A stretch of DNA of 64,000 bases, taken from the NCBI GenBank assembly GCA_946699065.1, contig CAMPDV010000715.1:124001-188000 (forward strand). Reading direction: 5' to 3'. Below the pieces are notes generated by a model. That model searched no databases. It was given only the letters and a program-made list of their open reading frames with translations, and was not told where the DNA came from. Position 1 is the stretch's first letter. Each line of letters starts with the position of its first letter. The position numbers were made by a program, and so were the translations under genes. Positions 10,081 through 64,000 of the stretch are shown here, in pieces. This stretch comes from Loxodes magnus. Lineage: Eukaryota > Ciliophora > Karyorelictea > Loxodida > Loxodidae.

Positions 10081-10455
10081 TTTATATAGTAAAAGGTAGT
10101 GTGGTTGAAATAAGGTATTTACATTGTAATTAGATAATTCTAAAGAGAATTGTAGAGTAAATTCTAAAGTAAAGTATAGTTATAAAGACACTAATACTTT
10201 ATATTTAACTATTACTAAATCAGTTACTTCTATTCTTCTTAATTAACTACTATATACATCTCTACTTTATACTCTTACCTATATCTACTTACTATCTATT
10301 TCTCTACTTTAGATACTATTAAGTTACCCACCTACCTTTATTCTATTCCTATCTACCCTTTACTTCAAAATCCCTTACTAACTTATTCCCATCTAATTAC
10401 TACCTTTTACTGTCTCTTCGCTATCCTTCCTTAAGAGACCAATCTATCATATGAA
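10081..10455. promoter_or_regulatory. Divergent intergenic region
   Basis: This spacer separates the 5' end of the F-box/LRR gene (-) from a plus-strand coding stretch, so it should hold both promoters. The plus strand is pyrimidine-rich (many CTAC, CTATC and CCTTACT repeats). I see no specific promoter element. Confidence 0.35.
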
Positions 10456-11195
10456 ATGTTGCCTTAGAATAGAGTTACATGATAACAGCTTTTAGACTAA
10501 GAAATATAGTTAAGATTAGGAATAAAAATTAGCTTTATTTAGACCTTTTAGAAGAATAGACTGGATGTGATAAATGCTTCCTTTAAAGGCTCTAAGAGAA
10601 TTATGACAAACTCAATCTCTGAAAACAGGAAGATAGTTAAGCTTTTACTTTATCAGCTTAAAGTTTGCTATTTAGTCTTAAATAATCAATTCTAGTGCTG
10701 AAGCTAAACCAATTTAAAATTTTATCGATGATGCTAAGATTTTCGATTATATAAAAAGAGTGAATTAGAACATCAAAAGCAGAGAAGAAGTTCAAGTAAA
10801 TATAAAAAGTCAACTAAAATAAGCTGAAAGCAAATCTATAAAGTTAAACTTCTTTCTTATCCATAATAATGCTATATAATCATCATATATCAAGCTCAAA
10901 TTCAATGATATTGTGCCTATGCAAATTAGAACTCTTTAAATAGAAACTAAACAAGAGGCTAGAAAGAATGTTTAATCTTAGTAAAAACCTAATAATAAAG
11001 ACATTAAATGGTAAATTTATTATTTGATATATATAGATAAATAAAACTTGCTGATGAAATATTAGAGATATAACTTCGAAAAAAATGATCGCGATACAGA
11101 ATGTAAAGTATTATGTTAGCTATGTCTAAAACGAAGAAATTGAAGAGATATAGTAGTTTAATTAAGTGGCTATACCTAAGTTGGCTTACCACTTT
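10456..11195 (+). CDS. Unrecognised protein-coding stretch
   Basis: From ATG 10456 the frame reads as a plausible protein beginning MLPQNRVTWQQLLDQE. After a one-base frame change near 10690 it continues AEAKPIQNFIDDAKIFDYIK and LKFNDIVPMQIRTLQIE, with balanced Asp, Glu and Lys, unlike random AT-rich sequence. Gln is mostly TAA or TAG. I recognise no domain. The frame change could be a sequence error, decay or an unseen intron, and the end is uncertain. Confidence 0.4.
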
Positions 11196-11214
11196 ATTTA
11201 TTATTATTTAATTG

Positions 11215-12344
11215 AAAAAAACAACAATTAAGTCTACATACTCATTGGCTTCATCAGTTGAGGCAACTCGACATTGTCCAACCAAAGAGCTTGAATCGGT
11301 TCTCTTCTATTTATTATGTCCTTTCTCTTCTCATTATGTACCACACGAATTATTGATTCTCAAGTAGTCTTGTCCATTTTTAGCACCATAACTAACAAAA
11401 TTTACACCATGGTTAAGATGAGCATTATCCATTATAAAAGTCTTGAGAATAGAATGACCTATTTGAAATATGAACTGCAACTGAGACAATATGTCCATTT
11501 ACTGCGTTTTTCAAAGCAGCTTCATTAGAGATAACTTCTACAAAGTTTGTTATTCCGAAAATAGTCTTGGATGAGTCATATTTGCAGCTTCCAACTTAAT
11601 TGTTGTATGAAAATCTGATTCAGTTTCTTCACTATTCTATTGCCAATATTGGAAGGAAGAGTCCATCCATCCACCATTGCATCCTTGGTTGCAAAATGAA
11701 CCAGAGCAGTCAATTAGCTCTTATTCAGAGAAGGATACCAATTGTCTAGTCTTTTGGAAGTAAGCTCCTTCCCAACTCCTACAGCACTAAAAGCATAGCA
11801 GCTTTTGAATTGGTTTTAATCTTTGACAGATGTTAAAGCTCCCTTCAATTCCCAATCAAGAGAATCATCAGCATTTTATTCATATTCATATATTTAGTTC
11901 TATACCCTGTTTAAGTATCCTTGTATCCTAAGCAAGTCTTTCAGAATTCTTCGTTAGTCAAATCAGCGAAGTAATTAACTGCGAATCTTGTGATCATGTT
12001 TCTCTAGTTCTAGACTTTAATCCAGTAATAGCAATAATGGAAAATACTGTAGCTTTGCTATATCTCTTAGAAAGAACTATAAGTCTTGTTGGATTTCTTA
12101 TCGAAGGCTTGGAATTAAATCTATGATTCTTCAGCACTTTCTTGAAACTAAAATTTTCCCATCAAAGCTCTTCCGTTATTTTTTGCTGCAAGCATCACTA
12201 AAGCGACTAAACTGTTTAGGACAGGCAATAATTTACTAATTAGCTTGGTAGAAGGCATTGAATTTATTAAATTAGGTATTATTAATTGGCTAACTAGAAA
12301 GTAAAATAAAGTTAAGTTTAATAATCTAAGCATTAAATACACTT
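11215..12344 (-). pseudogene. Cathepsin L-like cysteine peptidase (papain family C1), decayed
   Basis: The reverse strand reads as a preproenzyme. A hydrophobic start from ATG 12342 (MYLMLRLLNLTLFYFLVSQ) is followed by an I29-type propeptide (KKSNKTYSSFQEIQQSYSIF, VNYFADLTNEEF). The mature part has GALTSVKDQ, the active-site Cys in SCYAFS, QLVSFSEQELIDC and NQGCNGGWMDSSFQYW. It also keeps the active-site His in LNHGVNFVSYG and the Asn in INNSCGT. Residues next to the Cys differ from the family (QCGSCW is replaced by QFKSCY). The Trp of the terminal Gly-Thr-x-Trp motif is TGA, at 11331-11333. Several frame changes, at about 11890, 11780 and 11400, interrupt it, so it is probably no longer functional unless the assembly has indel errors. 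Confidence 0.8.
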
Positions 12345-23560: not shown

Positions 23561-24239
23561 TCCTATCTAATCTCTTAAATGATTTAAGAATGAAATCCAA
23601 AGATTAAGTAAGATAAAAAGTAAGAAGTAAACAGCTAAATCTCCTTCGCCATAACTAAGATATAAAAATAAAAAATAAGTTCAGAAAAAATTAAACGAAG
23701 AAAAATTTTAAGTAGAAGTGTGAAAGATAGAAAACAACTATAGCTTAAGTAATATGAGAAAGAAGAACAAAAAAGTCACAAGTCCCATATTCAAACATCT
23801 CTAGTATATTTTTTATTAATATATCATTATCGTAAAATATACTCACTTAGTAAGATAAGGTTTTATACTATTTTTAATAAGTCTAATTAAGTAACTATGA
23901 AAATAATAAAGAGTGAAATTTATTTATAGATGTTAACCTACTTACTTTTAGTCTAATGTTTTGTAAAGATATATAGCAATTAGCTGGTATAGCTTTAAGT
24001 ATTTGAACGATATGAGTACTTTAAAAGTATTAAAGAGATTTGAGTGAATGAAGATAGAGACAAAGTTAAATGATGAATGATAATGAGGATAATATGTAAA
24101 ATAATAAGAGCCAGGATCTATATAACTATGCCAGCAAGAAAAAGATTCGACTGATACAGATAGGATATCAAACATTCTAATCCACTTGATCATGATCACA
24201 TGATGTAATATAGCCAATTAAATTAAATTAAATAATGTT

Positions 24240-26770
24240 CGCCTTTCAGCTTAATAAAATAATTTTTATGATATCACTCTCATTCTGAAACTCTTAGGTC
24301 TTCATTATTGTTTTGATTTGATTTTTTTTAAGTTTAGTTTCTCTTCTTCTTGTATCTTTGTTCATTCTAAAAATAATTATTTTAAGTCTTCTTTATTCAA
24401 ATATTACTAATGGATTTATTTTTTCCTCAATCATTCTTAAAATCAAGTTATTTGTTAATGTTTTTGTTTTATGCTAGACCATGCTTTTTTAATCTTAAGA
24501 TCAATATCTTCTAGGATTTATTTATTCTTTTTTGTTTCTTAATTTATTAATATTTGATTATATTCTAGCATTTCTTTTAAATTTTTCTCTATTTTTTATT
24601 AGTTTCATTGTTTATTGTATATTTATTATTTCCTTCTTTTCAGATTTATGTTTATGTGTAAGTTTTATAATGTTTCTTGTATCTGAAGACTGTTTTCTTA
24701 TATAATTTATCTGTAATACTAGCAATCAAAGACGTGTTCAAATTTTTCTTATTGCTAACAAATGCATAGTATCTACTCTTAATCAATATGTCTTTCTGAG
24801 AGATCAGCTCTAAAAAATATTAATTGCGTTCTTAGTCTATAAATTAATTTTTATTCTTTTATTAATTCTTTGTTTGTTGTTATATAAGTAATTTTTTTAA
24901 ATTTAGTCTCATTTTTATATTGTCTATAAATTATTTCGGCTGTTTTCATATCTTATATTCTCTATATTGTTTCCTTGAAAAATTTTTTTTGTATTTTTTT
25001 TTAGATTTCTTTAGTATAATTGTTTATGTTAAGATCTTTTATTTATTCATTGTTTATTTCATAGTATTTTTCAATTTTTTTAATACTTTTTTTATATTTT
25101 GAGTTTTATTTTTAACTCTGTTTGAAAAGTTATTAGAATTTTGTATCTTATCTACTTTTTTCTTTTTCTTGATAATTTCTGAATTAATCTTATAACTTTT
25201 TGTAGAATTTTAAAAATCTTTATGCTGTTGAATCTTCAAATTTACATCAGTTGAAATCTATATACTATATTTCTTTAAATGATGCTTGTGGAATTTTCAA
25301 GTATTTTCTTAGGATTTATCTTTGTGCTATTTAGATTTTATTTTTTCATTTTGTTATTCCTAATTGAATACTATATGGGATTAATTCCGAGCAGTATTCT
25401 AATTTTGGCATTATAAATAATCTGAATAAGTTCTTAAAGTTAATTGGCTATGTTTTGTTATAGTTTTTAAAGAATTAGGATTAGAATATAAATATCGATT
25501 ATTAAAATTTCTTGAAGAGGTACTCAATCTGAACCTTTTCTTCATTAAGTTAGTTTATTTGATATCCTAGGTATTAAATTTGTTATTTCTATTAAATTTT
25601 TTTTCCTAATAGAAAAAGTTCAATCTCTTTGTTCGTTGTGTTTCTATTCTTGAGTATTTATATAAATTCGCATTTCTCCGTGTTAATATTAAGTCTTATT
25701 AATTTAAAAATGTTTTCAGTTTCGTTTAGTAAGATTTACATATTTTTTTGATTATTTGATATTAGTATTAAATCATCTGCTCAAGCAAGTTTAGCATGAT
25801 AAATTTTTTGAATTTTATGCCCTAGTTTTTCATATTTTTCTAAATACCTTAATACTATATCATAGTATATTATTGCTAATATTGGTCCACTTGAGCTGCC
25901 TTGTAAGACTCCATTTACTTACCGAATTTTTCTAGTTATTTCTTATCAAGATAGAAGTTAATTTATACTTTTTAATATGTATCTTTTATTATATTAATTA
26001 TATTTTACGAAATGTTTAATCTTTTCATCTGGTCAAATAAAAATCTGCGATTTATTGTGTCGAACATTTTTTCTACATCAATTAACGTGATTAATAAGTC
26101 TTCATTATAATTTTCTTTTTTCTTTTTATTTTTATAGTTTTCTATGATTTGTTTTAATTATCATATATTATTAGCAGTTTGCATCTTTTTTATAAATCCT
26201 TTTTAATCTTTGTTTAATATATCTTAATATTATATTTCTTAGTATAATTGGTTAGTTACTAATTTATCAAATATTTTTTAAATTACGTTTATGAGTGCTA
26301 TCGGTCTGTAATTTTTTCAATTTTATTTGTTTCCTTTTTTGTGAAGCATTATTACTTTAACTTTGTTCATATTTTTAGGTAGTTTTTATTGCTTCTAACA
26401 ATTTTAGAAAAATTTGCATAGTATTTATCATAGTTCGTGTGATGCGTTTTTTATTAGTTCATTTGATATTGAATCAAATCCTTGAGCCTTATTGTTAGGT
26501 AAAAATCTTATTACATCTCATACTTAGTAGTATAGAATATTTTCTCATTTTGTATTTATTTTTAATCTTTCTTTAATATTAGTTCCATAGATTTTGTAAA
26601 TTTCTTTATTAATTTAGTTATTTTAGTTTAGAGAAAGATTTTATTATTTATTAAATACATTTTTCTCCCAATTTTGAATGAAGTCTTCTTATTACATTTT
26701 CGTCAGGTTAATTTTTGTTCCTTTTTTTGGGTTTAAAATATTTTTGGGTTAATTGGGCATTTCTTGATTA
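24240..26770 (-). mobile_element. LINE (non-LTR retrotransposon) ORF2, reverse transcriptase part
   Basis: The reverse strand shows the reverse-transcriptase blocks in order: AQGFDSISNELIKNAS, NYRPIALINVI, QKGFIKKMQTAN, LITLIDVEKMFDTINRRF (26041-26100), GVLQGSSSGP and AWADDLILIS (Trp is TGA at 25781-25783), then YLGYQI and a C-terminal region. The Asp of the first catalytic motif and the Asp-Asp pair are present. One frame change lies near 25918, between the third and fourth blocks, so this copy is not intact. No endonuclease domain is seen on either side of the RT, so it is 5'-truncated or divergent. TAA and TAG are frequent at Gln sites. TGA also occurs at Trp-like sites before NYRPIAL and in HELW. 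Confidence 0.85.
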
Positions 26771-28790: not shown

Positions 28791-29883
28791 GGATCAATAT
28801 TTCAAATCCATTATTCAAATATATATCCAATATTTACTATTAAAACACTAACCTTTTCTTCATCTTTCTAAATTCTTACCAAAAACAATAAATTAATCTT
28901 ATAACTATTTTTAAATATTAAACATCCTCTAATACTTATTATCTACTAATTTTTAACTTTATCATTATTTTATTTTTATTATCATTTTTTGAGCCTAAAT
29001 AATTAAATTTAAAAAATTCAGTACAAAAATCTTTAGTATAAAATGCTGAACAAAAAGCGAAAATTATTTGTTTAGTTTAAAAATAACTAAAAGTGAATAT
29101 AAAAAACTTTCTTAGACATATTATATTCAGTTTTTAAAATTTTATTTTATTTTCACAAAATCTTTAAAATTTCTTTTGAATTAAAATGACATTTTGATTT
29201 TCAAGTTTTCTAACACATAACATTAAAAAAATTCGATTTTTAACTTTTCGATTTCTTAACTATAAAATAATTTTTATCCACTCTTTAATTTCCAAAAAAA
29301 TTAAGAATTTTTTAATTATTTTAAACCTTTTAAAAATTTAAATCAGCAATTCGAACATTATCTTTAAAACTTTTCGAATTCTATAATAAAAAGCATATCA
29401 ATTTATACTTATTATTGAAAAAAAATTTAACTCTAACATAAAACTAAAATTTTTCGCTTTTTTTGAAATTAAAAATCCTTAAAATATTATTCTCTTATTT
29501 GCATATAATATATAAAATTTTTATGTTTTAAATCTTTATTTCTCCTAAAAAAATTTCTAATATATTTCAACTATTTTTTCAAAACATTTTTAAAATTTTA
29601 ACTTCTTCATATATAGACCTAAAATAGCAGAAAATAAATCAATTAGAAAACTTTGTGTCATTACTTAAAATTTTAATTTAGAAAAATTATATAAATACTT
29701 AGCACTCTTTACATTTTTTAAATTTTATTATGACTTGCATCTCTTTATCCAGTTTTTACTTTATTATTCCGTTAAATAAAGATCGAACTTGTGCTAATCG
29801 ATAAGTTAAAAAAACAAAATAAAAATTTTCGTAAATGTTTTAAGCAAAATTTAATAAAAAACAAAAAAATATCATAACAAAAT
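28791..29883. other. AT-rich region with one diverged copy of a recurring core motif
   Basis: Around 29020-29070 the text resembles the AAATCTCTTGTAGTG / AAAACGCTGAGCG core that recurs four times at 40640-41830. Otherwise only A/T-rich filler is seen. Confidence 0.4.
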
Positions 29884-30612
29884 TGACCTAATTAACCAAA
29901 TTAACTGAATTGAACAAATTAACTAAAGTGACCAAATTAACCGAATTGATCAAATTAACCAAATTGACCAAATTAACCAAATTAACCAAATTAACCAAAT
30001 TAACCAAATTAACCGAATTAACTGAATTAACCAAATTAACCAAATTAACCAAATTAACCAAATTAACCAAATTAACCGAATTAACTGAATTAACCAAATT
30101 AACCAAATTGACCAAATTAACCAAATTAACCAAATTAACCGAATTAACTGAATTAACTGAATTAACCAAATTAACTAAATTAACCGAATAAACCGAAATG
30201 ACCAAATTAAGCGAATTGAACAAATTAACCTAAATTAACTAAATTAACCAAATTATACGAATTATACGAATTGACCAAATTATACGAATTAACTAAATTT
30301 ACCGAATTTACTTAATTAACCGAATCGAGCAAATTAACTAAATTAACTAAATTAACCAAATTAACCGAATTAACCAAATTAACCAAATTAACTGAATTAA
30401 CCGAATAAACCAAAATGACCAAATTAACCGAATTGAACAAATTAACTAAATTAACTAAAGTAACCGAATTATACGAATTATACGAATTAACCGATTTAAT
30501 CAAATTTTACGAATTAAAATTCAAATTAACTAAATTAATCGAATTGACCAAATTGAATTAAACCAAAATAAATTAATTAATAGAATTAACCAAATTAAAC
30601 GAATTAACTAAA
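29884..30612. repeat. 9-bp tandem repeat (satellite)
   Basis: About 80 units of AATTAACCA and its variants (ATTGACCAA, ATTAACCGA, ATTAACTGA, ATTATACGA) run for about 730 bp. The middle (29960-30190) is most regular and the edges are diverged. Because the unit is three codons long, it produces long open frames of Lys-Leu-Thr or Asn-Leu-Val repeats that are artefacts, not genes. The variants are arranged in blocks, which suggests higher-order duplication. Confidence 0.95.
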
Positions 30613-31479
30613 TAAAAAAAATGATTTAAAAGCATAAAATTTTCAAAAAGCGCTTTTATTTAAATATAATTGATTTAAAAATATAAAACTAATTAAAGAT
30701 AAAAATAATTTAAATAGCTTTATAAAATAGTATAATTAATTAAAATCATAATTGATTGTATTTTGTCTTTCAATTTTATAAAATAAGTAAACTTAGGCTT
30801 TATAAACTGGATATTTTTTCTATTAATAGTATTTAATAGTTTTAAGGTTTAAATTCTTACTTTTATAGCCATCTTTAGCAATAAAGAATCTACACACTGA
30901 TATTAGGAATTGGCGCTGTGCTTGAATAAAAATAGAGGATTGCGTTTAAGGTGATTTGTTAGGTTTAAAGTATAATAATTGATATATTAAATTTTGGTTA
31001 ATTAGGTGTATTTAAATGATATTTGGAAAGTTGTATAGTAGTGAGTTAAAAAAATATAGTTAGAGCATGAGGAAAATAAATGATAATTAAGGTTCTAGGT
31101 TGTCTACAATTATAAATGATAAAATTTATCAAGCATCATAAGTTAAATTAAATTTTATCAATAAATATATATATTTTATTATATTTGCTATTTTCATTAA
31201 ATATATAAAACAACATAAATAAACTACAATAAAAACACTTTCTAATGCTCACAAATAAAGCTAATAATTGTTTATTATATACTTATAACCAACCTTTGAA
31301 TACTCAAATAATCATTCTATCATTATATCTGATACTAATATAAACGTATAAAAAGAATAATTATTAATATTTTTTAAAGATTTAAATTAATAAGATTCAT
31401 AATTAAGTATATAGTTAGCCTCCTTATTTTATCACTAAAGTAAATCAACACCACCTTTATTTATATTAATCCACAAACT
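30613..31479. other. AT-rich spacer
   Basis: No gene, RNA or clear repeat is recognised between the 9-bp satellite and the degenerate gene copy. Confidence 0.4.
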
Positions 31480-35289: not shown

Positions 35290-36252
35290 ATGCAACATTC
35301 CTTGTAAAAAGTCTCTTAGGATCCATCCCAATTCATTTATGATTAGTAAAAAATGCTCTAAGAACTCAAAGCTATGTAATAGGAGAATTTTAAACTTTAA
35401 AGAAACGTATAAGAGCTTGAAGGAAGAATCGCATACCTAATGTCTAACACATCAATACTAAAAAATTAAAATTTCTAACCAGTCAATCTGAGAATTGAAC
35501 AAATGGAAGTCAAATTCAATCAATTAGCAGAATTGACTGAAAGCTTATTTCTAAAAAATACAACAACAAATGATCCCATGGATATGGAACCGAATATCCA
35601 ACCAGCAAAATTCTGATAGTAAAGAATAGAAAGTAATGCTGGTATTGCAGGAAATATGGTCATATTTTAAGATATTGCTGAAAATTCTTATAAAATAAAA
35701 GTTTGAAAGCTATAAGTTATGAAAATCCATAAATAATTTATACTGCACTCCAGAAGGTTTATTATAGGATATATTTTTATTAATATAGTTTTTCGAAAGT
35801 GAGCAACAAGGTCATCTTCATCAGAGGTTGGGGAAGTTAAGTACCCATAATCGACTTTATGTCTTCCTCTGCTTTGGTTTGGTCTCGATACATAAGATTC
35901 TTAGATCTTTGGTACTGGCTTAGTTTAGATTTAATTCTGGAACGAAAAAGAAATAATATTGCGAGCTTCATCAGAGGTGGGGAATTTAAGTATCCATAAT
36001 TGACACATGTCGTCCTCTGCTGTGGTGATGTAATGAGACATAATCCTGCCATGTCCTTGGTTCTCCAACAAGTATTAAAGATTACGATTATTCTTAAATT
36101 ATATCAGTATTGAACAAGGTCTACGAGTATCTGATAATTTTATCAGTAACAAACATTCTTGTCAGTATGAAACATTTTTTTTAAAGAGCTGCGCACCAAT
36201 GAGAGTGCTACGCACTCTATAATCAAATTTATTTATTTATTATTTATTTATT
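35290..36252 (+). mobile_element. ORF1-only LINE-like element with long 3' UTR and (TTTA)n tail
   Basis: From ATG 35290 the frame gives a coiled-coil protein (MLQELKAMQQENFKLQRN). After one frame change near 35610 it reaches a complete zinc knuckle CWYCRKYGHILRYC at 35637-35678. The GC-richer repeat 35786-36252 follows and ends in a (TTTA)n run. The same repeat at 1419-1936 lacks the ORF. This suggests the repeat is the element's 3' UTR, recognised by a LINE reverse transcriptase in trans. No ORF2 is present. The alternative is that a SINE simply inserted behind an ORF1 remnant. Confidence 0.65.
35786..36252 (+). repeat. Dispersed repeat, copy B (3' part of the ORF1 element)
   Basis: It matches 1419-1936 over nearly its full length, with scattered substitutions and one deletion of about 45 bp relative to copy A. 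The internal duplication (CTTCATCAGAGG...CCTCTGC) and the GAGCTGCGCACCAA block are kept. It ends in a TTTA-type tail. Confidence 0.85.
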
Positions 36253-42870: not shown

Positions 42871-43340
42871 TTATTTTAATATTAAAAATTAAATTAAATT
42901 AATAAAATTCTTTACTTATAAATAATTAGAATTACCTTTCTATCCTTTATCCAAAACATTTACTTTATCTATTTTAAAAACAATTTACTCACTAAAAAAA
43001 TTAATAAAGAACATTAACACTCTTTATACTCTTTATACTCTTATCACTCTTTTAACTATTTATACTGCCTTAACTCTAAATACTCTCATCACTCTTATCA
43101 CACTTTATACTCCCTACACTCTAAATACTCCCTGAACTCTTAAACATTCTAAATACCCTTATCACTCTAAATACTCTTATCACTCTTTATAACCAACTTT
43201 TATTAACTAATCATCCACAAACTCATATACGCTCTCTTATATAAACATATTAACTCATAAACATATTAGCATATTAACAAATATATAAATTTAAATTTAT
43301 TCATATAGAAGAAGAAATCACTTTAATAAAAATTTTAATG
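42871..43340. other. AT-rich spacer with short irregular repeats
   Basis: A run of related blocks (ACTCTTATCACTCTTTATA and variants, about 43015-43190) forms a loose tandem array just before the 8-bp satellite. No gene is seen. Confidence 0.6.
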
Positions 43341-44990
43341 AAAACATATATAAACATATAAACATATAAACATATAAACATATAAACATATAAACATATA
43401 AACATATAAACATATAAACATATAAACATATAAACATATAAACATATAAACATATAAACATATAAACATATAAACATATAAACATATAAACATATAAACA
43501 TATAAACATATAAACATATAAACATATAAACATATAAACATATAAACATATAAACATATAAACATATAAACATATAAACATATAAACATATAAACATATA
43601 AACATATAAACATATAAACATATAAACATATAAACATATAAACATATAAACATATAAACATATAAACATATAAACATATAAACATATAAACATATAAACA
43701 TATAAACATATAAACATATAAACATATAAACATATAAACATATAAACATATAAACATATAAACATATAAACATATAAACATATAAACATATAAACATATA
43801 AACATATAAACATATAAACATATAAACATATAAACATATAAACATATAAACATATAAACATATAAACATATAAACATATAAACATATAAACATATAAACA
43901 TATAAACATATAAACATATAAACATATAAACATATAAACATATAAACATATAAACATATAAACATATAAACATATAAACATATAAACATATAAACATATA
44001 AACATATAAACATATAAACATATAAACATATAAACATATAAACATATAAACATATAAACATATAAACATATAAACATATAAACATATAAACATATAAACA
44101 TATAAACATATAAACATATAAACATATAAACATATAAACATATAAACATATAAACATATAAACATATAAACATATAAACATATAAACATATAAACATATA
44201 AACATATAAACATATAAACATATAAACATATAAACATATAAACATATAAACATATAAACATATAAACATATAAACATATAAACATATAAACATATAAACA
44301 TATAAACATATAAACATATAAACATATAAACATATAAACATATAAACATATAAACATATAAACATATAAACATATAAACATATAAACATATAAACATATA
44401 AACATATAAACATATAAACATATAAACATATAAACATATAAACATATAAACATATAAACATATAAACATATAAACATATAAACATATAAACATATAAACA
44501 TATAAACATATAAACATATAAACATATAAACATATAAACATATAAACATATAAACATATAAACATATAAACATATAAACATATAAACATATAAACATATA
44601 AACATATAAACATATAAACATATAAACATATAAACATATAAACATATAAACATATAAACATATAAACATATAAACATATAAACATATAAACATATAAACA
44701 TATAAACATATAAACATATAAACATATAAACATATAAACATATAAACATATAAACATATAAACATATAAACATATAAACATATAAACATATAAACATATA
44801 AACATATAAACATATAAACATATAAACATATAAACATATAAACATATAAACATATAAACATATAAACATATAAACATATAAACATATAAACATATAAACA
44901 TATAAACATATAAACATATAAACATATAAACATATAAACATATAAACATATAAACATTTAAACATATAAACATATAAACATATAAACATT
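43341..44990. repeat. 8-bp satellite AAACATAT, about 205 units
   Basis: The unit AAACATAT repeats for about 1.65 kb almost without change. The only internal variant I see is at about 44957 (CATTTAAA), with slight irregularity at the left edge. As 8 is not a multiple of 3, all three reverse frames give the same MFICLYVY octapeptide repeat, so apparent proteins of about 550 residues are artefacts. The near-perfect homogeneity implies recent expansion or an assembly consensus. Confidence 0.97.
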
Positions 44991-45354
44991 ATTTAATTAA
45001 TAAGAGTTATTATTAAGTATTTTAGTTGTTCACTCTCACTTTTTGAAATCAGACTCCTTCATCACTACAACCTGAAATTCATACAACCTGAATTCACATT
45101 AACAAGCAAACTCACCCCCTTATTTCACAAAACATACACTCTATAACATTATCTTTAAACTCATTTGTACTAACTTATATAAATTAAAACTTAAATTACT
45201 ATCTATTTAATTAAACTGTAAAGACAAATTTACATGCTAATATTTACTCCAATTATTACATTCTAATTAAATCATCAAAACTTAAAATACCTTTAACTAA
45301 TATTGCTGAAATATATTACTATCCGAAACTTTATAAACATATGTCAAATTGTAT

Positions 45355-45735
45355 ATTACCCCCTGATCAGTTAATACTTACATTCTATGCAGTTAAGAAT
45401 ATTAAAATGCTTACATGCTATAAGTTAAGAAATATTAAAATGTTTACCTAAGTAAAGAAATATTAAAATGACTTACATCCTATAAGTTAAGAATATTAAA
45501 TTCTTACTTTCTATAAGTTAAGAATATTAAAATGCTTACCTCCTATAAGTTAAGAATATTAAATGCTTACCTAAGTTAAGAATATTAAAATGCTTACACC
45601 CTATAAGTTAAGAATATTAAAATGATTACCTCCTACAAGTTAAGAATATTAAATGCTTACCAACTATAAGTTAAGAAATATTAAAATGCTTACTCTCTAT
45701 AAGTTAAGAATATTAAATACTTACCTATTTTAAAA
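45355..45735. repeat. ~36-bp tandem array
   Basis: About ten imperfect units of AAGTTAAGAATATTAAAATG followed by CTTACCTCCTAT and variants, with units of roughly 28-38 bp. The array lies just past the stop of the TRIM-like gene. Two related units occur at the matching place beside the degenerate copy (31780-31850), so the array expanded after the two copies separated. Confidence 0.85.
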
Positions 45736-45763
45736 GTTTAGAAATTTAACGTACGTCCTTTAA

Positions 45764-55200: not shown

Positions 55201-57350
55201 CTTTAAGTATATTTCTCAAACTTAATTCAGAGAGTTTTATCCCATTAATAAAGCTGGAATTTTGGTTTATTAGAGTATTGTACTTAAACTTTACTAATAT
55301 GAACTATAAATAATTCCAATTTTACAAAGCAATCAAATATTTTGTAGAGGTTTAGTTAGAAAATTCAGAATTTCTAATTTTGCTATCAATCCTTAATAAC
55401 ATTCTATCCAAAATTTAGAAACTACAAATTTATTTTCCGCTGCTTCCCTAAAATTTACTGTTTATTATTTACAAATTTACTATATTATGCATCCTGGCTA
55501 GTTTCAAATCTGCAGCTGCCATTTAACCTATATTTTCCATTAAAAAAGTGTTCTCAATTTTAAAGGAGGCAGTTTAAGTTTTTCCATTTACATTAAGCAT
55601 TCTAGTTTATCTAATTATTAGATAGCTAGTCTTTATTATTTAAACTGCTAGTTTAGGAAAATGTGCAATTAGTTATCAGCACTTATTACCAGAACTTAAT
55701 TTCCATTCAAGGCTATAAATTACAATTCTTGCGCCTTATCATTCCTTATGCAGTCCTATACTCAGTTTACTATCATTCCTCCACCTCTTTCATTATAGTT
55801 ATCAGAAAATATATTAAAATGGATATGCAGAGTTAACTATAATTCAACAACTAATATAGCCAAAATCTGTTTCAACTCAATTTTGAGTCAATCAGTTATT
55901 CATTCAGATTTAGTTATAGCAAAAGCTACAATTAGTCATCTTAATATCTTCTACCATTCTTATTTACTCAAATATTACATCTTCAACTATTCCAAAATTG
56001 TCATCTTATAGACACAAGCCACAGAAAAAACTCTAATTATGGCTCAATATATTGCTGCTCAGTATCACTTAAAGTTAACTTCTCAAATTATTGATGTAAC
56101 TAAGTTATAGCTAAATACCCATTTTACTAACCATTTTAGCCTTCTATTGCTGCTCTTTATTAGGTGCCATTCAAATCACTCTCATACCAAGTATCTTAGT
56201 TTTAAATATCTTAATAATAGTCATTCAAATCTCCTGCTAAATAACTTACAGTTCTGAATCAAAAGGATAGCTTCAATTTCACTGTATAAATAGTTTTATA
56301 AGTATGATCAAATTAAGCTTTAGTGAAGGTAACTTCGTTTATTTAGATTAGTTGAGTCTGGTTAGATTTTAAAAACCCAGGAGACACAATTCCTGCATAG
56401 TTTTAATCTCCACTTTTTTAATCCAAATTATGGAAATCATTTATTTCACTCCCTCTATTAAATTTTAGACTTCCACAAACAAATTATTCGTGCTCTAATA
56501 CTCAATACATGCTAACGAATACATTCATGAATCAAGAAACTAAAAATTTGTGTCATTAAATTCTAAATTACAAGATTACCATTCAATGTAATTACAATGA
56601 TACTTAAAAAATTGATGAAACCAAACATTATTTAAACTCGATTTTCCTTGAATGATCATTATCAGAGATTATGTATTTTTCAGACATTCAGTTCCAAAAA
56701 AATAAGGTTATTTAAAATATCTGTTGCTAAACTTCATGAATAACCATATTTATCAAGTAAAGAAAAAGGATCATCTCTCGAAAAGGAAGTTCCTGCATAT
56801 ATATTACAGGATCACTTATCATTTTTGTAGAAATACACATTTGGGAGATTCATATTTAATGCAAATGTGTGAATTTCTAATATTAGGTTCTCAAATTTTA
56901 AGTGGCTTTAAAAGAAAAAAAATTGAATATCTGTTCACATGAAAAGAATTTTAGTTCTTTCTTTAGGATCAAAAGTACATTTAACTAAGTCTGAAATTTA
57001 GTTTTTTGGATACTGAAAGCAATAAAGGGTTTAAATAGTTAATTGCTTAAATTACTTGTATAAGCTTTTAGTCTATAGTTTACTTTAGGAGTAAAAAGTA
57101 GCTAGTAAAACTGTCAGGAGCCATTGAAATTTTTCCTTATTATAGTTCGTCTAAATAATGAGTTCCATTTGTTAAAAGAATCTTAAGATAATTCTTTTAA
57201 ACTCCTTCTGCCAAAGCTTCAGCTAATGAAAGATAAGGTCGATCAAAAGTTCCTAGTCCTTTGCATACAATGCAGCCAGGCTGATATTCTCCTGGTTTAA
57301 ATTTTGAGTTTTCATTTGGTTATTCGCTAGATGCCCCTACGAAATAGAGG
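52230..57350 (-). CDS. Large surface protein: parallel beta-helix repeats, Cys-rich region, C-terminal membrane part
   Basis: The reverse strand starts near 57350 with GCIVCKGLGTFDRPYLSL and LTNGTHYLDEL, the usual lead-in of polymorphic-membrane-protein-type beta helices. Repeated rungs follow, for example DGGGYKQGGAIYLEESKNI, AYQDGGAILVLQANVSIAKN and KPKGGAIRLVWFG. Then comes a Cys-rich segment (DCESCPDGVDCTEGV; SGYWSNNVIKCPRASSC, with Trp as TGA at 52823-52825; CAAGYTGNLCNSC). The C-terminus has YFKILMNYLQIS and a hydrophobic LILMMLLPIFIFIIQTIF. This layout is common in ciliate surface membrane proteins. A few frame changes (for example near 53555) may be small introns or breaks. The exact start and end are not fixed. 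Confidence 0.72.
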
Positions 57351-57837
57351 GTTGTGGTAAGTGGAATAAAATTTTTGATATTTTCCCTCGAAAATCAGTC
57401 AGCTGCCAGTTATCGAGAAATTTTCTATTATTATAGCACGCAATAGAGAAAAATTCAGAGTAATATTGAATATAACGATGTTATGCCCCTCTCCCTCGCG
57501 AATTCGGACCAAAAGCGATAGTTTTTGAGTACTGGAACTAATAAAAAGGGAAAGATTTGAAGAAAGCGAAGCTTCCTGAGAAAGTAACAACGCAGGAGAC
57601 CTTTTATTCAAGCAATCTAAGTTTTGATGTTTCCATCAGTACCATTCTCACAATTAATAAGCTAATTTCAACAGGTACAGAGATACCTTCATTTCCTAAG
57701 AATATTAAAATTGCGCTACTTGAACAAAATATAATTTCGCTTATGAATCCGATTAAACTAAAAGTTTTCTATTCCTAGTAACTATAATAGATGAAAACGT
57801 GAGATATTTAAACTAGTTTTGTTTAGATAACAGTAAA
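57351..57837. other. Boundary zone between ciliate gene and archaeal-like block
   Basis: Base composition rises around 57480-57600 (CCCCTCTCCCTCGCG). Open frames on both strands here show no recognisable family. It may hold further decayed foreign sequence. Confidence 0.35.
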
Positions 57838-58620
57838 ATGGATATTTTTAAATTAATATGAAAGTAGACGCTCAGAAGAGGATTAAGTATCCGAGCAATC
57901 ATAACCTATCTTAATTGTATACAAAGATTATTTATACAATATCCAAAGGATCCTATTGAAATTTATATGATAGCTATAAAGGATTTTTCTTGATAGATTA
58001 GTTGGCAGAAATTTCCCGGGAAATACATTAAATGTGCATATGAGCAGCCTTAAATTCTCAATATCAAGAAATTGCATAAAAGTCTCTTGCTCAGGATATG
58101 TTATTAGAAATACCAAAAATGCTACCTAATTTTTTAATAAAGGTCTTGCTTAATACTATTGATAATCCAAAGCACAAACTTATTGTAAAACTTATCTATT
58201 CAGCAGGATTTAAAGTAAATAAGATTATCTAGTTAAAAATGGTTAATCTTGACCTCAAGAAAGGATTTAGATGAGAATGTAAAGGCAAATATAGCAAGGA
58301 TATATTGTTTGCCATTGCAGACAGCCTTGAGGATAAAATAAAGGAGTATAAGAGGAATAATAATAGCTCATTGCTTTTCTCGAGAAGAAATGGGCATCCT
58401 ATGTTCGGAATGTGCAGCAAATTTATCGAGCAGCTGTCTTAAGTGCTGTTATTGAAAAGTATGTACATCCTCATACCTTAAAGCATACCTTTGCAGCTTA
58501 TCTTACTAAGAATGGCTATGAAGCTCAACTCAATTCTTACTAGGATATTCTAGCATCCAGGCAACCTCGATGTACTAAGGCTTCGCCCAAAATGATCTGT
58601 TCATTGTCACTTAGACAATT
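57838..58620 (+). pseudogene. xerA: XerA-type (archaeal-like) tyrosine recombinase, decayed
   Basis: The family cuts and rejoins DNA, as in chromosome dimer resolution. From ATG 57838 (MDIFKLI) the text follows the archaeal XerA layout. The N-terminal core-binding part has LSIRAIITYLNC and YPKDPIEI. The catalytic part has NPKHKLIVKLIYSAGFKV, where the first catalytic Arg is not seen. Later come KEYKRNNNSSLLFSRRNGHP and VHPHTLKHTFAAYLTKNGYE (the His-x-x-Arg box with Lys instead of Arg). A final block in another frame reads SIQATSMYQGFAQNDLF, with the catalytic Tyr in SMY. The gene is clearly broken by several frame changes. Its closest look is to archaeal proteins rather than eukaryotic ones, judged by motif memory only. 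It lies in the same strand and order as two more archaeal-looking genes. Confidence 0.8.
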
Positions 58621-58652
58621 TACCATAATAATAAACAATTATTTTTTCTAAA

Positions 58653-59355
58653 AATGGATAAATACTGTTTCCGCATATCAAACTGAGATGATTTTATTGC
58701 AAGAGACAAGGTAAAGGGATTGTCAAATACCCGTAAAAGTTAATATGACAGAAAGTTTTTGGAAGCAAAAAAATCTCAATATTCTAAACTCAGACTAACT
58801 TGCTGACAAGCTTCATATGGCTAAAACATGGAGATTGAATGAATTCTATAGGAATAGGTTTGCTTTCCTTGGCATAGAAGCAACAGACGTTCTTAAGTAT
58901 GATGAGCTTACTGACATTGACTTGCTTGATGGGATTGATACAAAGACAATGTTAAAGGCATTAATCTCAATCTTTTTGCATTAAATAAGAAATTGAGCAA
59001 ATATAGCCTTATTATTACCTTTAATGGAGAATCTATTGGAATACCTTTCCTAAAAAAGAAAGATCCTGACATACTGCCTAAATCCCACTTTTTGTTGTAA
59101 AGGCAACAAGTAGGAGAGTAGGGTAATTAGGCGGCCTTAAAGTGATTGAAAGTAACTAGGTATACAATGAAAAAAGATAATTAAATTTTTATGGCGGTGA
59201 TCCTGTGTGCTTATAGAGAACGTATCAGGCAACAGGCAGATGAGTATTATTTAAAGCTTCTCTTTAAATACAATGAAGAAGATGTTGTTAATCTCAAGAT
59301 AATTGCTGACTTTACAATAGATAGGCTACAAGAAACAGTGAATCATCCCTAAAAA
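58653..59355 (+). pseudogene. RNase H-like exonuclease (YprB/COG2251-type), decayed
   Basis: Blocks recognised in order are WDDFIARDKVKGLSNTRK, NRFAFLGIEATDVLKYDELT (the Asp-x-Glu site reads Gly-Ile-Glu), LSKYSLIITFNGESIGIPF (family: NG-x-x-FD-x-P), GLKVIE, FYGGDPVCL, TYQATG, and YNEEDVVNLKIIADFTIDRL, which holds the last acidic site. This is the layout of the predicted 3'-5' exonucleases found widely in archaea and bacteria. It is broken into several frames and probably lost a stretch near 59095-59130. It sits between the recombinase and the helicase, as in a compact prokaryotic gene cluster. Confidence 0.8.
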
Positions 59356-59384
59356 TTAGTTTATAATATCCAATATATATTTCT

Positions 59385-60160
59385 GCTTATGAAGCATGAG
59401 TAGATTAAGAAAATGATTCCAAAAAAACTTAATGAAGTACATGAAAAAGAAAAGATTCAGAAGCTAAGGCCAACACAAATGGAGGTAATAAAAGCAGAAT
59501 TATCGAAAAAAAAAGCATATCCTTGTGTAAACGCCAACTGCATCTAAAAAAAACTGATCACAGAAATTAAATTACTTACATCTCTGATTTAAGGAAAAGG
59601 AAAGAAGCTTTGTATTGTCCCATTAGAGGCATTTGCATCTAAAAAATATAAGTAATTTAAGATAAAATTTGAATATTTTGCCAAATTTGCTCCTTTTATT
59701 GGTTACATTGAGATATCTGAGCCCTATCTTGCAAAATATAACTTGATCATAACCACAAGCGAAAAGCTAGACTCATTGCTTAGGCTTCATGCGCCCTGGA
59801 TTCTAAACATTTAAGTAATATTCATTGATGAAATCCATCTTTTCAAAAATCCGGGAATTGAATTGATGAATAGGTTTTTCATACTAAGAAATTCTGCTTT
59901 TAGAAAGGTTATGATTTGTAGATGTCAAAAATGTTTTATATCAATTTTTGACAAGGACTTAAGAGAAATATTATCTTCCAAGCTCGTCTCTGGCTGCTTA
60001 TACTCATAAGATTCTATTAATTCCTGGCATGTGTATTTTTTCACTGGCTTTTTTTAAATGAGGGGAAATATTAGTGGAATACTTGCAGCACAGATTAGCT
60101 GAGACTTGTATTTTGGATATATTAACCAAACCAAATGCCCTCAAATATAATAAGAGAGAA
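59385..60160 (+). pseudogene. Hel308-type superfamily 2 helicase, N-terminal part, decayed
   Basis: Recognisable pieces are KIQKLRPTQMEVIKAEL (Q-motif region with LRPTQ), the Walker A region in a shifted frame (VTPTAS followed by Lys), KLCIVPLEAFASKKYKQFK (motif Ia; family: VPLKALAxEK), YNLIITTSEKLDSLLRLHAP and VIFIDEIHLF (Walker B). The order and wording are those of archaeal Hel308, a replication-repair helicase. The RecA2 domain and C-terminal domains are absent or unreadable beyond about 60160, so the copy is truncated as well as frame-broken. It is the third gene of the archaeal-like block. Confidence 0.82.
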
Positions 60161-60451
60161 TTTTTAAGATTTCTTTGTAATAGCCGTCTATTGCTTTTTT
60201 GTAACAGGTATAATTAAAATCCTGTATAATCTTTGGTTTTACACGACTTTTTCCCAAAATAATATAATTCCTTTAAATACAGGAATAATTACAAGAAATT
60301 GAGATTCATCTAACCCTTTTTGTAGAGTTCTATCTTTTTCGGAAAAAACACGACCCGAATAACATCATAGATCCGTTTGCAAGCTTAGCGGGCTATAAAA
60401 ATGCTTTGCTGCCTTGTTTGCAACATTTATATGTTATGAAAATCTAATTAA
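60161..60451. other. Spacer between archaeal-like block and duplication
   Basis: Nothing is recognised. Composition is intermediate between the archaeal-like block and host AT-rich sequence. Confidence 0.35.
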
Positions 60452-61500
60452 ATCTTGTTAGAGCAAATGTATAATTCCTAATTACATAAATCAATTTCTG
60501 AGTTAGGCTTATTACAAATTTATAGATTTAGTAGAATTTGATGAAGAAGATAAAAAAAAAAGTTTAATATTAAGCTGATTGTTAAAAAAGAGCCTGTTGT
60601 TACCCTCTTGATATTTTATCCGAGAAAGAATTACAAAAAAACAAGAAAGTTAGATTACTTTAAAAAGATGTGAAACTAAGCAGAATTGAAGAAGATGAGA
60701 AAGAGAGAAGGTTCGAAGAAGAGTGTAAAGCAAAAGAAAGACGAGGATTCAGACTATATATGTCAGAGTAGCTGACCGTATATAGAGAACTTGATGTAAT
60801 TCCATCTTTGAGTGATCCGAAAATACCTCAAGTGACAAAGGCACATGATCTCCTAAATCTGTGTGAAGGTAAATTGGTGTTAAGAGATGTTTCTGGGAAC
60901 CAAAGATTTTGAAACAAGCAAAAAGCTGATGGCAGAAGAAGAACTTATTGGTAGCATAAAAGTAAAAAAATAATTTTGAAATTCAACATAATAACTAAAT
61001 AAAATTAACTATTACCATAAATATAACCAATCTAATCAATCTTGATCATAATATAAAATAATTTATTATAAAATAACATTAAAATATGCAAATAAATATG
61101 GAACCTGAACTGAGAAGAGAAACAGAAATTAACACAAATGGGAGAACTTACCATTATCATTGTATTTTAAAGGGCGAACAATTTACGGTTCGTCTGGTCA
61201 AATTTTCTACAATTACATTCGAAAAGAAGTTTGACAAAACTTTTTTGTTGGATAAAGATCCAAGTTGGATGGCCATAAAAGAACTGAGCACAGTGTATGA
61301 CTTTCTTAGTCTCAATATTAATCAAACAAGTTTTAACCTTGTCGAAAACGAAGAAAGCATTACATTGGTAATAAGCTGGACACTGAATGAATATATTACA
61401 TTACATTTCAATGCAACTCTATCAAAAGAAACAGTAAAGCCTAATATTGTCATTGAAGAATTAGGCATGAAATTTTTAAATTTATAACGCAAAGTTCAGA
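60452..61500 (+). repeat. Direct repeat, left copy
   Basis: It matches 62970-64000 with an offset of about 2.52 kb and only a few percent differences, mostly single-base changes and one- to three-base indels. It contains an upstream protein-like stretch (60690-60900) and the start of the gene at 61086. Confidence 0.95.
60530..60980 (+). pseudogene. Unrecognised coding remnant upstream of the 61086 gene
   Basis: Protein-like text occurs in shifting frames: KLIVKKEPVVTLLIFYPR, RRFEEECKAKERRGFRLY, LTVYRELDVIPSLSDP and HDLLNLCEGKLVLRDVSG. The same text, with a few indels, is in the right-hand copy (63040-63500). Because the frames differ between copies, it is probably not a working gene now. No family is recognised. 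Confidence 0.4.
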
Positions 61501-62465
61501 AAATTGAGAAATATTTTACATTTTATAGTCAGAATATGTTTTGCAGGAAAAATTGTAAAATTTACCAGGACGTTTTTACAGCAGGGGATGAGTCTGTATT
61601 GAGAAGAATTGGAGGAGGGGCATATGACGCAACTTCTTATGGGACCAAAAATAAATGGAACTATACTACTATGATTAATTTTGGGGGAAATGAGAGTGAT
61701 GGTAATGGAGCTGAGGTGAGTATACCTGAGGGATTTGACTTGCTTTGGATTAGAGTGTTGAATGACAGATTTACTGATGTCTCAATTTACTTTTTAGATG
61801 GAGTTAAAGAAAAAATCGGCAGGTTTTACGCTGGGAATAGACATTTAAATGGAATATCCCCAAAAGGAACATCAGCAGATGGAGGATATGCCACTCATTT
61901 ATGGATGCCAATCCCAGTCAAAAGAAATGGAAAAGTTGCGATGATCTCAAAAGTAAATACTACCTCAGGATTTTGGATATCAGGGATTGCCTTTGGATTG
62001 AACATTTGGAAGATTGCCTACAATCCTGCAGGTGCATACTCATTGAACTTAAATGGTGGAAGTGGAGTGATAGCACATAATCTTTGGAACTAAGATCAAT
62101 TAGCATATGTTGCTGTAAACACAGTTGGGGTGTTATATGTTCCGGTAATCCCTTCTAAAAATAATAAGATGCTTTATTGGGTGAGCTATAATAACAGTTG
62201 GAATGATAATTGTTGTACCCAGGTGAGGGTAAACGACGTTGAAGTGGATGGTTTTTACGATGGATATGATAATCCAATTGCGAGACATCATAATGGAAAA
62301 ATATATTCAAGGTATTTTGCAACAATTATACCAAAAGAAATAATTCCAAATGATGCAACTTTCATCAAAGTTGAAATAGATATGTCTAAGCAGGTAACTA
62401 ATGGATTTTATTTCAGAGAGTTTGGAACACATGATGAGCTAACTTTTGATTGTATCGAAATTTAA
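61086..62465 (+). CDS. Unrecognised two-part protein, about 460 residues, atypical codon use
   Basis: Three open segments (61086, 61536 and 62130) lie in one frame, separated only by TAA codons at 61485-61487 and 62091-62093. Read with TAA as Gln, they form one protein. Residues 1-150 start MQINMEPELRRETEINTNG and end in a short helical linker. The rest is beta-rich, Gly- and Trp-rich, with GGAYDATSYG, EGFDLLWIRVLNDR, THLWMPIPVKRNGK and YYNSW-like patterns, reminiscent of a carbohydrate-binding or tail-tip fold, but I cannot name a family. All ten Trp are TGG and nine of eleven Gln are CAA or CAG. Neighbouring genes use mostly TAA, TAG and TGA. This suggests a recently acquired gene being drawn into the host code. 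The stop is either TAA at 62463-62465 or the first TGA at 62583-62585. Confidence 0.7.
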
Positions 62466-62585
62466 AAACTATCAACTTAAATAATTATATCTAAACTATT
62501 TTAGTAATGGGGCCCATAAATAATAGTGACATATACTTTAGCATTTATATTTTATATTACGTAATTCTTTGTTTTATGTAGTTGA

Positions 62586-62969
62586 TGATAATTAAAATGA
62601 TATGTAAAAAAATAAAGTTGAACTCTGGAAAATATCTTTCCGTTCAAATTTTTAATTAAAACATATTTATGACCCAAATGCTTTAGAATAATTCATGCAT
62701 ATGATGGATATTATCATTTTAATACGAAAATCATTTAGAAAAGTGTGGAACATATCAAATTAAATAATTATAACCTAATAAAATCTACTGTCAGGTGATA
62801 CATAATTTATTAACGTGGCCTTATTTGGTTTACCACATATTAATAATGTTTAAAAAATTTATATCAACAGTCTTGGAAATCTACTAATCTTGTACTACTA
62901 TTCTTCCTCTAATTGTTCGATTTCTTCTATGATAATCTCGCTTGAGAAATTAGGAATTAGAATACATTT
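62586..62969. other. Spacer between the two repeat copies
   Basis: No gene is recognised. A palindromic sequence at about 62951-62997 (AGGAATTAGAATACATTT paired with AAATGTATAATTCCT) spans the left edge of the second repeat copy. Confidence 0.5.
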
Positions 62970-64000
62970 ATCTTGTTAGAGCAAATGTATAATTCCTAAT
63001 TACATAAATCAATTTCTGAGTAAGGCTCATTACAAATTTATAGATTTAGTAGAATTTGATGAAGAAGATAAAAAAAAAGTTTAATATTAAGCTGATTGTT
63101 AAAAAAGAGCCTGTTGTTACCCTCTTGATATTTTATCCGAGAAAGAATTCCAAAAAAACAAGAAAGTTAGATTACTTTAAAAGATGTGAAACTAAGCAGA
63201 ATTGAAGAAGATGAGAAAGAGAGAAGGTTCGAAGAAGAGTGTAAAGCAAAAGAAAGATGAGGATTCAGACTATATATGTCAGAGTAGCTGACCGTATATA
63301 GAGAACTTGATGTAATTCCATCTTTGGAAGAGTGATCCGAAAATACCTCAAGTGACAAAGGCACATGATCTCCTAAATCTGTGTGAAGGTAAATTGGTGT
63401 TAAGAGATGTTTCTGGGAACCAAAGATTTTGAAACAAGCAAAAAGCTGATGGCAGAAGAAGAACTTATTGGTAACATAAAAGTAAAAAAATAATTTGGAA
63501 ATTCAACATAATAACTAAATAAAATTAACTATTACCATAAATATAACCAATCTAATCAATCTTGATCATAATATAAAATAATTTATTATAAAATAACATT
63601 AAAATATGCAAATAAATATGGAACCTGAACTGAGAAGAGAAACAGAAATTACACAAAATGGGAGAACTTACCATTATCATTGTATTTTAAAGGGTGAAGA
63701 ATTTACGGTTCGTCTGGTCAAATTTTTTACAATTACATTCGAAAAGAAGTTTGACAAAACTTTTTTGTTGGATAAAGATCCAAGTTGGATGGCCATAAAA
63801 GAACTGAGCACAGTGTATGACTTTCTTAGTCTCAATATTAATCAAACAAGCTTTAACCTTGTCGAAAACGAAGAAAGCATTACATTGGCAATAAGCTGGA
63901 CACTGAATGAATATATTACATTGCATTTCAATGCAACTCTATCAAAAGGAAACAGTAAAGCCTAATATTGTCATTGAAGAATTAGGCATGAAATTTTTAA
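62970..64000 (+). repeat. Direct repeat, right copy (runs off the window)
   Basis: Same content and orientation as 60452-61500. Small indels distinguish it, so the duplication is recent but not brand new. The right end is not seen. Confidence 0.95.
63606..64000 (+). pseudogene. Second copy of the 61086 gene, partial
   Basis: The first 110 or so residues match the left copy nearly perfectly (MQINMEPELRRETEITQNG). The frame then breaks at an extra G in an A/G run near 63948, and the window ends soon after. It may be a pseudogene, or the indel may be a sequence error. Differences from the left copy include both silent and amino-acid changes. Confidence 0.7.

Follow-up and report, generated by a model that had tools for sequence, protein, structure and literature searches.

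A broken block of three archaeal-type genes in a contig of the ciliate Loxodes magnus, probably a decayed piece of a woesearchaeal chromosome

From which organism were three broken, archaeal-looking genes in a contig of the ciliate Loxodes magnus derived, and how did they come to lie there side by side? The genes are found in a stretch of 64,000 nucleotides (positions 124,001 to 188,000 of contig CAMPDV010000715.1), which is called the window here and whose own positions are used throughout. A preliminary description had taken the block for a fragment of an archaeal chromosome, perhaps that of an endosymbiont, which was inserted into the nuclear genome and then decayed.

The block spans 57835 to about 60050 (~2.2 kb). 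It contains, head to tail on the + strand and nearly touching, the remains of an archaeal XerA-type tyrosine recombinase, of a PF13482-type (YprB-like) RNase H domain and of the N-terminal part of a Hel308 helicase; all three genes are broken. Profile searches, tblastn and a frameshift-aware alignment recovered these remains on one strand and in the order first described, the matched start at 57835 being 3 bases left of the one given before. The XerA pseudogene (57835-58625) is near full length. The RNase H pseudogene covers approximately 58603-59373, of which 58675-59337 was matched and the outer ends were extrapolated from the profile. The helicase pseudogene, which would have the split form known from its relatives, extends from 59389 to about 60050 and is matched firmly to 59868 and weakly to ~60050-60072. 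According to the matched ends, XerA and RNase H abut or slightly overlap, and a gap of about 15 bases separates the end of RNase H from the first Met of the helicase at 59389. From these ends, which support the compact prokaryote-like layout proposed earlier, we infer a prokaryotic gene spacing.

When the whole window was compared in six frames with 236 archaeal loci, 57832-60072 formed one cluster of archaeal matches, and the stretches on its left (57395-57831) and on its right (60073-60451) had no match to these loci. Further left, on the - strand, one or more open frames in genetic code 6 follow (56935-57394), which had been labelled a surface-protein gene. On the right lies a tandem duplication, which had been noticed before and is real: its unit on the + strand (60452-62969) carries a frame of 551 aa in code 6 (60930-62585), the second copy starts at 62970, and 60452-61479 and 62970-64000 are 98% identical over 1034 bp. 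The flanking frames gave no Pfam match (the left-hand frame at E 0.01), and for the duplicated gene no match was obtained in the PDB and no relative in viral_contigs.

The frameshift-aware alignment was run with ten shuffles per stretch as control. It yielded scores of 425 for XerA, 449 for RNase H and 339 for Hel308 (shuffled maxima 33.0, 37.9 and 35.6), and the majority residue of the woesearchaeal relatives was found at 121 of 259, 115 of 218 and 85 of 153 codons, respectively. For the recombinase, the NCBIfam model recomb_XerA_Arch (NF040815) ranks ahead of the XerD and XerC models, with E-values of 3.7e-13 for 58101-58430 and 2e-6 for 58331-58996, in different frames. Because the gene is broken, its score stays far below the full-length cut-off of 220 bits of this model; no intact open reading frame is present, hence XerA is a pseudogene. 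The alignment nevertheless covers profile columns 12-285 of 288, and tblastn matched 58113-58436 to locus L072 (E 4e-10). For the RNase H, a single scanned piece, from the tail, matched PF13482, and weakly so (E 0.013; 15.9 bits vs. a cut-off of 22). By tblastn, 58675-59346 matched the intact woesearchaeal locus L083, itself a PF13482 member (E 2e-18), and the C-terminal half matched locus L192 (E 1.5e-24). These matches and the frameshift-aware score, with columns 25-248 of 255 covered, establish homology to PF13482 members. The N-terminal Hel308 domain was recognized by NF002654 (E 1.4e-26) and NF040935 (E 2.5e-22), and 59389-59868 matched the N-terminal helicase gene of locus L003 (tblastn, E 7e-36). 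Seven PDB matches were obtained at E up to 1, namely the archaeal chains 2va8, 2zj2, 9b15 and 2p6r (E ~1e-16), followed by 7ujb (2.5e-8), 9if7 (0.0047) and the Ski2 entry 4buj (0.49).

The claim that all three genes are broken and decaying was confirmed by the lesions and by the residues retained. A total of 15 frameshifts and 15 in-frame stops was counted: 7 frameshifts and 5 stops in XerA, 6 and 6 in RNase H, and 2 and 4 in Hel308. Of the columns invariant in the relatives, 70/102 (69%) are kept in XerA, 64/99 (65%) in RNase H and 57/93 (61%) in Hel308N; at variable columns, a residue known from the relatives is present in 94/158, 80/119 and 41/60 cases, respectively (loci L252 and L250 for XerA and L196 for RNase H were left out of this count). 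The three genes have, thus, decayed to a similar degree, constrained columns about as much as free ones, and no constraint is visible. Such similar decay across genes and columns suggests one insertion, followed by neutral loss of constraint, and the pattern fits a donor not far removed from the clade that was sampled. Assuming neutral decay and a donor inside that clade, approximately 0.17-0.21 changes per site have occurred.

The 15 in-frame stops are mainly located at columns of W, Y, S, L, C, D and R or of mixed letters. Gln occurs in one stop column (E/G/Q), and the other 14 are without Gln (first helicase run). When alternative frames are used, a TAG at 58541 falls on a conserved Gln (6/6 homologues) and a TGA at 58684 on a Trp (38/38 homologues). 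Recoding of the three genes for use by the ciliate was considered as well; it was rejected on the 14 of 15 stops at columns without Gln, and no sign of an adaptation to the code of the host was seen.

Judged from these sequence comparisons, the source of the block is archaeal, as had been proposed: woesearchaeal relatives outscore the other archaea compared for all three genes. The helicase piece was scanned against a genome collection described as comprising 84,980 species, and the best 80 of 128 confirmed loci were used. The first 20 of these 80 are all DPANN (37-47% identity); 18 carry the title Woesearchaeota or Nanoarchaeota, and the remaining two, L001 and L006, whose title is just 'archaeon', belong to the same order as the relatives so titled. 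Below the first 20, the best 80 comprise Hadesarchaea, methanogens, Bathyarchaeota, haloarchaea and a few bins labelled as bacterial, together with two further loci titled Woesearchaeota or Nanoarchaeota (L023 and L072). Fifteen of the first 20 loci could be tied to genomes, and all 15 fall in one order of 352 genomes, that of genome G001, which is called the woesearchaeal order here on account of the record titles. Within this order, the helicase piece matches 313 of the 352 genomes with a best identity of 51% (G462), and many of the best rows come from one family of 36 genomes, that of G462. The RNase H is present in 218 of the 352 genomes. As a control, 35 genomes of other archaea were picked from the non-woesearchaeal loci of the helicase scan; 26 of them matched PF13482 and 22 XerA.

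Summed tblastn bits were compared over 354 loci, whereby L001-L020, L023, L072 and all loci from their genomes, class, order or family were counted as woesearchaeal; this side was the more densely sampled one. The best woesearchaeal locus reached 168.0 bits for XerA (best other archaeon 95.9; 35 woesearchaeal loci above the latter), 181.0 for RNase H (115.1; 54 above) and 140.0 for Hel308 (95.1; 80 above); for RNase H and XerA this is a comparison among archaeal genomes, in which bacteria are represented by profile names and by the standard control genomes of the search tools. The best XerA scores come partly from other families than the best helicase scores, and for this reason the donor, which would belong to the woesearchaeal side of DPANN, is proposed at the level of the order and not of the family.

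A tree of the helicase was computed from 40 rows (39 relatives and the window) with residues 38-56 masked, a twice-shifted stretch that was picked after frame changes had been noticed there. The window grouped with Woesearchaeota/Nanoarchaeota at 98/90. In the AU test on this tree, neither a placement among other archaea (p = 0.21) nor one inside one family (p = 0.135) was rejected. In an unmasked quick tree of 89 rows, the window was placed next to the family of G462, a grouping that lacked support (58); here, the placement among other archaea was not rejected either (p = 0.82) and the tree so constrained scored higher. The score gaps of the three genes and the helicase tree together point to the woesearchaeal placement, the support from the tree being moderate.

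The form of the helicase was compared with that of its relatives. In the family of G462, Hel308 consists of two genes, an N-terminal one, whose open frames measure 197-258 aa and end close to profile position 214, and a C-terminal one with frames of ~485-544 aa starting at 226-237; the cut-off for a full-length Hel308 was exceeded in none of the 36 genomes. Both pieces were found in at least 23 of the 36, on different contigs in all 23. In L003, L157 and others of the family, the two parts measure ~225 aa and ~520 aa, and N-terminal frames of similar length dominate the matches listed for the entire 352-genome order. The helicase of the block begins at the first Met of the relatives and its match ends by 60072, with the C-terminal part (~230-704) being absent in a comparison against loci not chosen for C-terminal parts. 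This absence would fit a split gene or, equally well, a truncated insert.

The order XerA-RNase H-Hel308N, for which a search of archaeal genomes had been suggested, was not found among the archaeal matches listed, nor was RNase H seen there beside XerA or Hel308N; loci were compared by script (before the last loci were added) and the contig numbers of the listed matches by eye. The nearest pair on one contig among these matches is ~12-14 kb apart (G154, G178). Closest to the order in the block is L072, where XerA precedes a split Hel308N by 380 bp and a frame of 102 aa lies between the two (L072:4747-6654, a bin titled 'Nanoarchaeota').

XerA-like recombinases can be carried by elements. The block might accordingly have arrived as, or together with, an archaeal plasmid, a virus or an integrative element with a XerA-like integrase, and one XerA relative, L236, indeed adjoins a frame resembling ParA, which we take to be ParA-like. 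This origin is unlikely, considering that Hel308N and RNase H are distributed over 313 and 218 of the 352 genomes of the order, that a search of 50,697 phage records with the DNA of the block gave no match, and that the helicase piece matched one plasmid record, from a methanogen, at 33%. A scan of viral_contigs with the helicase piece gave no relatives, and a DNA pattern search, the pattern of which had been checked on the window, gave no match.

The genetic code used elsewhere on the contig points to a ciliate. Over the 211 examined codons of a reverse transcriptase located at 24-26 kb (match to RVT_1, E 1.9e-13), 16 TAA/TAG and 3 TGA were counted; the frame of 551 aa in the duplication contains 14 TAA/TAG and no TGA. 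These in-frame TAA/TAG indicate a ciliate-type code, which supports the nuclear setting assumed earlier. The reverse transcriptase (24160-26200, - strand), in which the TGA codons are in frame, is weakly R2-like (E 0.01, R2 protein in the PDB) and suggests transposon-bearing, perhaps germline-type DNA. Elsewhere in the window, a papain-family peptidase with TGA codons (PF00112, E 2.6e-22) extends over two frames at 10000-11999 on the - strand; this host-side sequence may also decay, or it holds introns. At 43001-45000, inside an open frame of 1278 aa in code 6, the GC skew is -0.94 and the + strand is very poor in G. Short internal repeat arrays are present at 29875-30616 and 45373-45749, and a dispersed repeat pair is found at 1420-1936 and 35785-36251 (89-93%).

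A piece of a co-sequenced archaeon, for instance a decaying symbiont, could also have been misjoined into the ciliate contig during assembly, and DPANN archaea do occur with ciliates (PMC11127453). Such a chimera would need two false joins within ~2.6 kb and a donor with three adjacent and about equally dead genes, while in the relatives listed these genes are mostly open frames. In addition, the composition of the block matches that of the neighbouring sequence: its GC content of 31-33% is within the range of the neighbouring stretches (28-33%), and the loci of the donor group have 31-41% (n = 15), 13 of the 15 being above 33%. An assembly error is, consequently, given a small chance. The decay of old eukaryotic genes, i.e., a HELQ/Ski2-like helicase (eukaryotes have Hel308 relatives) and others, is very improbable, given that the four best of the seven PDB matches are Hel308 or archaeal Ski2-type helicases, that XerA_Arch is the best recombinase family and that three genes of prokaryotic type nearly overlap.

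The block is most probably a piece of a woesearchaeal (DPANN) chromosome that was inserted into the nuclear genome of the ciliate and decayed afterwards. A chromosome fragment of at least 2.2 kb with an operon-like XerA, RNase H and split N-terminal Hel308 would have entered this genome from an archaeon that was either eaten or resident, and it would have been joined in at a DNA break, probably by end joining. From then on, substitutions, stops and frameshifts would have accumulated in the insert free of constraint, as happens in NUMTs. The three genes are present and broken, their source is archaeal by the comparisons above, and each has decayed to a similar extent and apparently unconstrained; nothing in the block indicates that it ever served the ciliate as a functional set of genes. 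Physical insertion and the kind of contact between the two organisms are what we infer from this.

Among known systems, the block is most likely the archaeal counterpart of a NUMT. Like NUMTs and NUPTs, it would be a contiguous foreign piece of a small genome that decays in the nucleus without function; in contrast to them, its source would be a DPANN archaeon instead of an organelle, and it is one block, which is strongly decayed. With horizontal gene transfer in Euplotes, as PMC13071891 presents it, the block would share prokaryotic genes in a ciliate nucleus whose donors are possibly symbionts or food. The genes described there have bacterial donors and are in use, whereas those in the block are archaeal, belong to a multi-gene piece and are all dead. 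In sequence, in gene length and in the start of the split helicase, the block resembles the woesearchaeal genes for XerA, for the RNase H of PF13482 and for split Hel308; its copies, however, are broken and lie next to each other in an order that was not encountered among the archaea sampled. A literature search on ciliates, DPANN/Woesearchaeota, horizontal gene transfer and endosymbiotic transfer did not find woesearchaeal DNA in a ciliate nucleus in the titles and abstract openings of the matches listed.

Whether the donor was prey or a resident partner bears on the last part of the preliminary description. Its archaeal source, layout, decay and nuclear setting are supported, and the donor can probably be narrowed to the woesearchaeal DPANN; an endosymbiotic origin is possible, yet it is not favoured, because only one block is known and DNA from eaten prey explains it equally well. 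The hosts of Woesearchaeota have, to our knowledge, yet to be settled. For the archaea that live with protists, PMC13080271 describes a narrow taxonomic range and a tie to anaerobic hosts, methanogens being the classic case, and of the seven archaeal genomes from ciliates reported in PMC11127453, one is DPANN. It is conceivable, though rather doubtful, that the ciliate lineage once had a lasting intracellular woesearchaeal partner, unlike the usual methanogen symbionts, and that the chromosome of this partner left a datable nuclear, perhaps germline-limited, fossil. If true, a nuclear woesearchaeal fossil would be physical evidence of contact between a DPANN lineage and a eukaryote, and the block makes it testable whether DPANN archaea live in protists or are eaten by them.
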